Shown here: positions 31,974-34,252 of the stretch, one piece after another
How the letters are laid out: each line of letters opens with the position of its first letter
Position numbering within the stretch: the first letter of the stretch is position 1
Assembly (NCBI GenBank): GCA_017450695.1
Contig: JAFSTA010000084.1
Location: forward strand, 1-34,473
Length of the DNA stretch: 34,473 nt
Reading direction: 5' to 3'
DNA from: Kiritimatiellia bacterium
GTDB taxonomy: Bacteria; Verrucomicrobiota; Kiritimatiellia; RFP12; UBA1067
The notes under the pieces: model-generated
Seen by the model: the letters and a program-made list of their open reading frames with translations, nothing else
Told to the model about the DNA's origin: nothing
Database searches by the model: none
Made by a program: the position numbers and the translations under genes

Positions 31974-33257
31974 TCAGCAAGAGGGCGCGCGGTCAAACGC
32001 GCGGTGCGCGATGTCGGTCCGATAGCGAGAACCCGCAATCTGGATTTTGCGCACACCGTCATACGCCTTATCCACGGCAGACCGCAAGTCGGCGCCGAGA
32101 CCGGTAACCGTCAAGATTCGGCCGCCCGATGTCACAACCGCGCCGTCCTTCACTTTGGTTCCCGCGTGGAAAACCGCATCCGCAGCGGCCTCGGCCTCGT
32201 CCAGGCCGTTGACCGCCATCCCCTTCTCATACGAACCGGGATACCCGGCGGCGGCCACCACGACCGTGACAGACGCCTCCGGACGAACCGTCACAAGCTC
32301 TTCGGAGAGGGTGCCGTCGATACACGCCTGCAATGCCGGAATCAGATCGCCACCGATACGCGGCAAGACCGCTTCCGTCTCGGGATCACCGAACCGGCAG
32401 TTGAATTCAAGCACGTTGATCTCGCCATTCCGCCCGATCATCAGCCCCGCATAAAGGACGCCCTTGTACACGATTCCGCGTTTCTTCAGTTCACGGACAA
32501 CAGGCAGGATCACCCTATCCCGGATCTTCGGCAACATCGCGTCCGTCACCACGGGAGCGGGCGAATAGGCCCCCATCCCCCCCGTATTAGGCCCCTGGTC
32601 GCCGTCAAACGCACGCTTGTGATCTTGCGACGAAGGCAACAGCACGGCGTGTTCACCATCGACCAAAGCCAGAATCGAAGCCTCTTCCCCATCGAGGAAG
32701 GTCTCGATCAGAACCTGGCTTCCCGCCTTGCCGAACTTGGCATCGACCAGCATCTCGCGGATGGCCTCCGTCGCCTCGTCGCGCGTCTGCGCAATCACGA
32801 CGCCCTTGCCGGCCGCCAGCCCGTCCGCCTTAATCACCACGGGGAGGGTGAAGTCACGAAGCGCAGACATGGCGGAATCGACGTCGGTACAAATCACCGC
32901 CTTCGCCGTCGGAACGCCCGCCGCCGTCATCACCTCTTTCGCAAAAGCCTTGCTCCCTTCCATCTGCGCACCCGCCTGACAGGGACCGAACACACGCAAT
33001 CCCTCCGCCACAAACGCATCGGCCACGCCTAGGCAAAGCGGGACTTCCGGACCGACAACCGTCAAGTCGGGACGATTCTGCTTCGCCCACGCGGTCAACG
33101 CAGGGACATCCTCGGCGGAAATGGCGACGTTGGTCGCGATCCGCGCCGTTCCCGCATTGCCGGGCGCACAAAAAATCTCAGGCTTCCCTGAATCACGGGC
33201 AAGACGCCACGCAATGGCATGTTCCCGTCCACCACTACCGATAACCAAAATTTTCAT
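31974..33257 (-). CDS. purD: Phosphoribosylamine-glycine ligase
   Basis: ATP-grasp enzyme of purine biosynthesis joining phosphoribosylamine and glycine to give GAR; 427 residues, the usual length. Starts MKILVIGSGGREHA. The ATP-grasp core shows GPCQAGAQMEGSKAFAKEVM, PVVIKADGLAAGKGVVIA, SQDHKRAFDGDQGPNTGGMG and LEFNCRFGDPETEAVLPR. ATG 33257 is chosen because it gives the family start; a TTG at 33278 in frame is unlikely. No Shine-Dalgarno sequence precedes the ATG, and the promoter places transcription start about 3 bases before it, so the message may be leaderless. First gene of purD-purE-nagA. Confidence 0.96.
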   Translation of the reverse strand: MKILVIGSGGREHAIAWRLARDSGKPEIFCAPGNAGTARIATNVAISAEDVPALTAWAKQNRPDLTVVGPEVPLCLGVADAFVAEGLRVFGPCQAGAQMEGSKAFAKEVMTAAGVPTAKAVICTDVDSAMSALRDFTLPVVIKADGLAAGKGVVIAQTRDEATEAIREMLVDAKFGKAGSQVLIETFLDGEEASILALVDGEHAVLLPSSQDHKRAFDGDQGPNTGGMGAYSPAPVVTDAMLPKIRDRVILPVVRELKKRGIVYKGVLYAGLMIGRNGEINVLEFNCRFGDPETEAVLPRIGGDLIPALQACIDGTLSEELVTVRPEASVTVVVAAAGYPGSYEKGMAVNGLDEAEAAADAVFHAGTKVKDGAVVTSGGRILTVTGLGADLRSAVDKAYDGVRKIQIAGSRYRTDIAHRAFDRAPSC

Positions 33258-33266
33258 AACGAAATG

Positions 33267-33295
33267 AGCATACTTCAAAACAACCGACTCCTCAA
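33267..33295 (-). promoter_or_regulatory. purD promoter
   Basis: On the minus strand TTGAGG (33290-33295) and TATGCT (33267-33272) have exactly 17-base spacing. The expected start near 33260 is only about 3 bases from ATG 33257. Confidence 0.55.
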
Positions 33296-33322
33296 GCCAA
33301 AAATCAAACGCTGAAATTGAAG

Positions 33323-33528
33323 GGGCGCATCTCCGTAATTCAACAAGAGCCCGTGGTACTCAAACACGGAAGTTTTCATGACATGGTCTCACGCAAAGTT
33401 CGCAAAGCCCGCGAAGTTGCCGATGATTCCCCCTTTGCGAACGTGGCGGACTTTGCGTGAGGTTGAATCTTCGCGTTTCGGTATCGCAGGCATCTACATG
33501 AATCACGGTGAAAAACGCAGATGCGCCC
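33323..33528. mobile_element. MITE-like insertion (206 bp) with terminal inverted repeats
   Basis: The ends are perfect 10-bp inverted repeats, GGGCGCATCT (33323-33332) and AGATGCGCCC (33519-33528); over 22 bases the arms match at 18 positions. A direct repeat AAATTGAAG flanks both sides (33314-33322 and 33529-33537). Inside, CTCACGCAAAGT (33388-33399) pairs with ACTTTGCGTGAG (33450-33461), and TTCGCAAAG (33399-33407) with CTTTGCGAA (33433-33441). No transposase is encoded, so movement would need one supplied elsewhere. The direct repeat with adjacent inverted repeats is the standard mark of transposition. Confidence 0.7.
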
Positions 33529-33673
33529 AAATTGAAGGGAGCCTTGGTGGTCTCATTTTACTTGGGTGGTTGGGTGTTTCCGCAGTTCGGCAATCGATAG
33601 CGGTCGATCGCCCTCGATAGCTATCGATAATTCCCGACTGCCTTCTTCTCAGCTTCCCAGCTAAGTCAACTTA

Positions 33674-33724
33674 GGGGCGCCAACCCCATTTAGGCCGCAA
33701 GGCCACTTAGGCGGCGCAGCCGCC
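33674..33724. repeat. Cluster of three small hairpins with shared spacer motif
   Basis: GGGG/CCCC (33674-33687), GGCC-GCAA-GGCC (33693-33704, a GNRA-type loop) and GGCGGC-GCA-GCCGCC (33710-33724). They are separated by related linkers (CTTAG, ATTTA, ACTTA). Function unknown. Confidence 0.65.
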
Positions 33725-33822
33725 ACTTATCAGCTTCCCAGCCTCTCAGCTTTTCAGCTTGTCAGCTGGCGCGAAGCCCCCCCGCTTCTCAGCTGGCGCG
33801 AAGCGCCCCCCCGATTTCACGA

Positions 33823-33851
33823 TTGTTTTCGAACGTCCGTTGTTGTAAAAT
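33823..33851 (+). promoter_or_regulatory. Promoter of the Minf_1886-family gene
   Basis: TTGTTT (33823-33828) and TAAAAT (33846-33851) are 17 bases apart. The expected transcript start near 33858 almost coincides with ATG 33860, and no Shine-Dalgarno sequence is seen. Confidence 0.6.
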
Positions 33852-33859
33852 GAGATGCG

Positions 33860-34252
33860 ATGAACGCAATTTTCCAAGAGACTGTTTTGGCGATCTGCAA
33901 GAAGGATCCTCGCTATTCGCCCGATGCCTATACCTTCATTATGGAAGGTCTTGACTATACGCTAAAGAACGTACTGAAACTCTCGCCGCGTTCCGTCCGT
34001 CATGTCAGCGGACAGGAACTCGCGTCGGGATTGCGCCAGTATGCGATCGAAACATTCGGTCCGCTCGCGCTCACCGTGTTGACGGAGTGGGGAATCCATA
34101 CCACGGACGACTTCGGCCATCTCGTGATGAATCTGGTCGATGCAAAACTCCTCTCCAAGCAGGAAAGCGATTCGATTCAAGATTTCCACAACCTGTTTGA
34201 TTTCGACCAGGCCTTCAACTGGCCAGACTTCGATTGCAACGACAAGCCATGA
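33860..34252 (+). CDS. Minf_1886 family protein (PVC-specific, unknown function)
   Basis: 130 residues, no signal peptide. Conserved features I recognise from this small Planctomycetes/Verrucomicrobia family: KKDPRYSPDAYTFIMEGLDYT (14-34), RHVSGQELASGLRQYAIETFGPLALTVL (47-74) and EWGIHTTDDFGHLVMNLVDAKLLSKQESD (76-104). A Phe/Asp-rich end (FHNLFDFDQAFNWPDF) completes it. Function is not known. It overlaps the next gene by ATGA (TGA at 34250-34252, ATG at 34249), suggesting coupled translation with the probable SWIM/SNF2 helicase. Confidence 0.88.
   Translation: MNAIFQETVLAICKKDPRYSPDAYTFIMEGLDYTLKNVLKLSPRSVRHVSGQELASGLRQYAIETFGPLALTVLTEWGIHTTDDFGHLVMNLVDAKLLSKQESDSIQDFHNLFDFDQAFNWPDFDCNDKP

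Follow-up and report, generated by a model that had tools for sequence, protein, structure and literature searches.

Described systems and the element in the window

The insertion sequence (IS) families considered here have been grouped as p-MULT, the prokaryotic Mutator-like elements (Guerillot et al., PMC3942029). Members of the ISKra4 family have inverted repeats (IR) of 18–39 bp with a terminal C and direct repeats (DR) of 8–9 bp, and those with near-perfect IRs insert in both orientations (PMC3942029). Insertion 13–17 bp upstream of sigmaA promoters is reported for ISLre2, TnGBS and some ISKra4 elements (PMC3942029). Our literature search found no paper describing miniature transposons (MITEs) of ISKra4.

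The window, a stretch of 34,473 nucleotides from a Kiritimatiellia bacterium, contains a short repeat-bounded unit between the divergent purD and Minf_1886-family genes (Table 1). The initial annotation had described it as a 206-bp MITE-like unit with perfect 10-bp terminal inverted repeats (TIRs), 9-bp flanking direct repeats, an internal inverted repeat and no transposase, and direct reading of the sequence bore out each of these features. The TIRs are identical over their first 10 bp and match at 18 of 22 positions over the longer arms, both copies of the target site duplication (TSD) are perfect, and the only ORF overlapping the unit is a chance one of 80 aa. The predicted single-stranded fold of the unit is a hairpin of nearly full length (−89.3 kcal/mol, z −6.8). 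An Rfam scan of the MITE gave chance-level matches only and no Rfam family.

Table 1. Features of the purD–Minf_1886 intergenic region, in window coordinates
Feature	Coordinates	Strand	Basis or remark
purD, ATG at 33257, downstream of the predicted targeted promoter	31974..33257	-	TIGR00877, 521.7 bits
Predicted purD -10 box, TATGCT	33267..33272	-	TATGCT conserved in all three genomes
Predicted purD -35 box, TTGAGG, starting 27 bp outside the MITE end	33290..33295	-	Position and N17 spacer conserved in G002 and G003
Left TSD copy, AAATTGAAG	33314..33322	.	Sequence read directly
MITE, non-autonomous, 206 bp	33323..33528	.	Copies in own genome, TIRs and TSD, no transposase ORF
Left TIR, GGGCGCATCTCCGTAATTCAAC	33323..33344	+	20/22 against the parent IS TIR GGGCGCATCTGCGTAATTCACC
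Internal inverted-repeat module, CTCACGCAAAGT...ACTTTGCGTGAG	33388..33461	.	Arms 33388-33399 and 33450-33461
Right TIR, GGGCGCATCTGCGTTTTTCACC (minus-strand reading)	33507..33528	-	20/22 against the parent TIR
Right TSD copy, AAATTGAAG	33529..33537	.	Sequence read directly
Minf_1886-family gene, on the far side of the MITE from purD	33860..34252	+	TIGR04138, 143.8 bits

The internal module is also present, as CACGCAAAGT...ACTTTGCGTGAG and with 75–82% identity, in other genomes of the order (L049, L051, L052, L053 and L054), apparently without TIRs, and so appears to be a dispersed repeat in its own right that the MITE subfamily of the window has taken up. Between the MITE and the Minf_1886 gene lies a low-complexity stretch (33640-33830) built of CAGCTT / CTTCTCAGCTGGCGCGAAGC repeats, and at locus L115 another TIR is bordered by a similar motif.

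The genome that contains the window is a 5.0-Mb MAG in 287 contigs and, judged by its relatives, belongs to the gut Kiritimatiellae. It holds about 40 copies of the MITE, 82–95% identical and each at a different place, which disposes of the reservation in the initial annotation that the unit might have no second copy. The first 20 bases of the right TIR, with at most one mismatch allowed, occur 69 times in this genome and 62 times in a congener, and 16 of the 57 genomes sampled from the bacterial family contain them; the reversed sequence gave no matches in the genomes scanned. A laxer TIR pattern finds 126 ends in the own genome, a figure to be read as at least 126. In a collection of named genomes at least 84 stretches carry the pattern, and nearly all those listed come from gut MAGs labeled Kiritimatiellae, Lentisphaerae, Verrucomicrobia or uncultured bacterium. 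The TIR is absent from viral contigs, and matches in Herbaspirillum and a Deferribacterales MAG were set aside as within the number expected by chance for 257 Gb.

Pairs of convergent TIRs delimit 81 distinct elements across the full set of loci retrieved. In 40 of these, 8 or 9 of the 9 junction bases are identical, a result reached by 0.04% of random junction pairings. Half of the paired-TIR elements are without a clean TSD, for which decay, nesting or mispaired ends are offered as causes. Elements verified by their TSDs are 172–475 bp long, the parent described below (1,805 bp) excepted, and enclose several unrelated interiors between the same TIRs, so that they form a set of MITE subfamilies with one kind of end in common. 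Clean empty sites, of the kind that the initial annotation had called for, were found for two sister copies. A 223-bp element in L165 is missing from a UBA1200 contig (L155) that aligns ungapped over 291 bp with a single copy of the target (88.4% identity over 198 bp of BLAST match), and a 227-bp element in L085 has a clean empty site in L231. For the window insertion itself, no empty site could be read, because no purD match was found in genome G001 and the spacers at purD in G002 and G003 are too diverged.

Five copies in the own genome (L007, L010, L017, L018 and L019) have a common flank on one or both sides (GTTGCCCCGGCAGGCCCT / GCAGCCCCTTCGTACTGACCGATTAC), and the MITE therefore seems to sit there inside another dispersed repeat, which multiplied once the MITE had inserted. 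On contig C107 of the same genome, MITE-like ends about 2 kb apart surround a CpaF/VirB11-like ATPase gene (L107, 1040-3030). This region (C107:46539-48528) was rejected as a 2-kb autonomous element, the MITE-like ends around the gene being separate; they showed no TSD in common, and therefore the region need not be a composite transposon. Avoidance of genes by the MITEs is a weak trend only and is uninformative at the flank size used.

A transposase-bearing element with the same ends

Two observations revealed the parent element: several unpaired TIRs had right-end sequences that read as the ends of a coding element, and a weak UPF0236 match in genome G004 proved to be enclosed by the TIRs. 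It is 1,804–1,805 bp long, with perfect 22-bp TIRs (GGGCGCATCTGCGTAATTCACC) and a 9-bp TSD. A complete copy of 1,805 bp lies on one contig of G036 (L265, 111-1915), flanked by the TSD CCGCGTTTT and with TIRs identical at 22/22 positions. Contig ends split the G004 copies, whose left and right flanks pair by the TSDs GAGGGTGAA (L264/L287) and CGCGCCTGG (L192/L284). The 22-bp IR, ending in ...GCGCCC, and the 9-bp DR at three insertions agree with the ISKra4 description.

The element encodes a 438-aa DDE transposase and a small DUF6788 ORF. The best family match of the transposase is NF033572 ISKra4 (148.8 bits, E 2.5e-43), followed by ISLre2 (NF033529, 50.6 bits) and ISH6. Since the score lies under the NCBIfam cut-off of 205 bits, the element is named ISKra4-like and is not filed as a member. 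Residues D185, D274 and E393, shared by 16 of 17 aligned homologues, are assigned, by conservation and not by structure, as the DDE triad. The DUF6788 (PF20586) ORF, 110 aa long and on the strand opposite to the transposase (L233, 269-601, minus), may encode an accessory or regulatory protein. Homologues of the transposase at E below 1e-20 were found in 17 of 388 sampled genomes of the phylum, and plasmid homologues are 23–31% identical, some being annotated as ISKra4 or ISLre2.

The initial annotation had proposed that a transposase with matching ends would identify the parent, and the 22-bp ends of this 1.8-kb IS, found in related genomes, are almost those of the window MITE (20/22 at each end, not 22/22). 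The match extends beyond the ends to the TSD length and to the insertion register, all five parent insertions having a -35 box at 27 bp with a spacer of 17. The position of the parent at this register therefore ties the MITEs to the ISKra4-like transposase independently of the TIR match. No similarity was seen between the interiors of MITE and parent. The own genome yielded neither an intact parent nor a close homologue of the transposase, but only the remnant of an ISKra4 element on contig C13, decayed and with two stops; a parent may nevertheless be present, because identical IS copies may drop out of a MAG in 287 contigs.

Target duplications of 9 bp are not unique to ISKra4, and another DDE family with duplications of this length (IS4/IS5-type DDE_Tnp_1, ISLre2 or IS256) might move the MITE, in which case the ISKra4-like element would be a bystander whose ends agree by coincidence. 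DDE_Tnp_1 transposases are indeed present in the same genomes. However, none of their loci carries the TIR, and they were rejected as parents, whereas the ISKra4-like element is bounded by perfect TIRs, produces a TSD of the same length and keeps to the 27-bp register at every insertion. This alternative is strongly disfavored and we give it very little weight. At L218 a DDE_Tnp_1 gene has a near-match to the TIR on one side but no counterpart on the other, and the near-match, which lies in a flanking gene, is apparently fortuitous.

Position of the insertions relative to promoters

Promoters were scored in 261 distinct flanks of TIR ends, with pairwise ungapped identity below about 64% over 70 bp, as matches of at least 9/12 to TTGACA-N16..18-TATAAT reading away from the element and with the -35 box starting 24–29 bp out. 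Such a promoter is present in 73 of the 261 flanks, where about 2 are expected, and in 52 of the 73 it starts at exactly 27 bp. Shuffled flanks gave a mean of 1.9 and a maximum of 6 in 200 runs, and control windows gave 0–3 at other outward positions and 0–6 for inward-facing promoters. In the own genome alone, 22 of 85 flanks carry such a promoter. Both end types are used about equally (28/123 'AA' ends and 31/109 'TT' ends), as expected because the IRs are symmetric. When 42 verified elements were scored at the register with a threshold of 8/12, a promoter was found on one side only in 30, on both sides in 1 and on neither in 11. To our knowledge, so sharp a promoter-relative register is unusual among MITEs. 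The value of 27 bp is firm for the family to which the window MITE belongs.

Such a register might also arise by selection after random insertion, if insertions elsewhere were purged and the transposase made no choice of target, and intergenic insertions are generally better tolerated. However, the distances left by purging would be widely spread, whereas the observed peak is about one base wide, and most verified elements have the promoter on one side only. We regard selection as an improbable source of the register.

At the window copy, TTGAGG begins 27 bp outward from the left end of the MITE and, after a spacer of 17, TATGCT follows at 50 and the purD ATG at 65. Taken alone, these predicted boxes score only 8/12; the corresponding boxes upstream of purD are TTGCTG-N17-TATGCT in G002 and TTGATG-N17-TATGCT in G003, both without a MITE at that place. 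They are probably a working promoter from which purD is transcribed. The predicted -10 box and the ATG are 9 bp apart in the window (33257-33295) and 7 bp apart in two relatives, and this spacing would imply a purD transcript that is leaderless or nearly so.

Like several, but not all, of the published ISKra4 elements, the parent inserts upstream of promoters, but at a distance of 27, not 13–17. By the same measure, ISKra4 elements of these genomes with GGGTG ends lie at 17 (L294), 13 (L286) and 14 (L357), and further elements with GGGCGCAT ends lie at 27 (L266, L270, L271 and L356), although the boxes of two are weak (7/12). In the transposase tree the five 27-bp sequences fall within a supported group that does not include the three GGGTG sequences. 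The exception is the ISKra4-like element L273 (G024:C17), with a GGGTG-type TIR (GGGTGCACCGAG) and boxes at 27 on both sides (10/12 and 8/12). The split by TIR type (GGGCGCAT at 27, GGGTG at 11–17) holds for most readable single-copy elements, with several cases undecidable, and is a lead only, because single copies with weak promoters are noisy and because of L273. The GGGCGCAT-ended lineage appears to be shifted by about one helical turn (10–12 bases) from the published 13–17 bp.

Interpretation and comparison with known systems

The 206-bp unit is short and without a transposase, has TIRs and a TSD, is multicopy with empty sites for sister copies, and has TIRs in common with an autonomous element; it is confirmed as a real miniature transposon and was correctly read as a MITE. 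We assign a probability of roughly 0.88 to its being a MITE of an ISKra4-like (prokaryotic Mutator-like, p-MULT 4 type) IS with promoter-position targeting. Mobility, ends in common with a transposase-bearing element and a narrow common promoter register are established at the level of sequence comparison. The MITE would be mobilized in trans by the ISKra4-like DDE transposase, which would bind its ~22-bp TIRs, excise it and insert it at a 9-bp staggered cut. The transposition complex would select a site according to where a sigma70-type promoter lies, probably by recognizing the promoter or promoter-bound polymerase, and this recognition would give rise to the register: one end of the element, in either orientation, would come to lie 27 bp upstream of the -35 box, with promoter and gene left intact. 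The inserted element could then serve as the upstream sequence of the promoter.

A static functional repeat under selection (a REP-like structural element, an RNA gene or an attenuator) would fit the strong hairpin and the intergenic site adjoining promoters, but is refuted by the empty sites and by exact TSDs that differ from site to site, and agrees neither with several unrelated interiors between the same TIRs nor with the chance-level Rfam matches.

For the promoter-targeting ISKra4-like element and its MITEs, we lean somewhat towards a broader view, in which the clade with GGGCGCAT ends uses a promoter ruler (27 bp) different from that of TnGBS, ISLre2 and ISKra4 (13–17 bp), and its MITEs have spread this targeting across many gut Kiritimatiellae genera, marking promoters genome-wide and perhaps tuning them as upstream sequences. 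Promoter-targeting DDE transposition has been the subject of few studies, and its mechanism poses the question whether the complex reads DNA, the sigma factor or RNA polymerase. A lineage shifted by one turn and sharp to one base, with relatives of the usual register in the same host clade, provides a natural pair in which to look for the distance-setting residues. In an uncultivated gut lineage with hardly any promoter mapped, the MITEs also mark promoters without the need for an experiment, and their flanks indicate sigma70-type TTGACA-N17-TATAAT promoters in these gut Kiritimatiellae.

The window MITE resembles bacterial MITEs in general in being short, without a transposase and multicopy, with TIRs and a TSD in common with a full-length IS. 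The parent shares with ISLre2 and TnGBS (p-MULT 3) a fixed distance upstream of sigmaA promoters, an 8–9-bp TSD and a related transposase (NF033529, 50.6 bits); in contrast to the parent, their insertion is oriented and lies at 15–17 bp, their IRs are asymmetric, and they occur mostly in Firmicutes (PMC3942029). The closest likeness is to the ISKra4 group of p-MULT 4 IS (PMC3942029; NCBIfam NF033572), in which the Mutator-like DDE transposase, the near-perfect TIR with terminal C, the 8–9-bp TSD, insertion upstream of sigmaA-type promoters in both orientations and the occasional extra ORF of unknown function, here DUF6788, all have counterparts. Unlike that group, the parent has a transposase scoring 149 bits against a cut-off of 205, places the -35 box at 27 from its end and not at 13–17, carries specifically a DUF6788 ORF and has spawned many MITE subfamilies. 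The MITE as a kind is known; the parent lineage, the radiation of its MITEs in Kiritimatiellae and the shifted promoter ruler form a variant of it.
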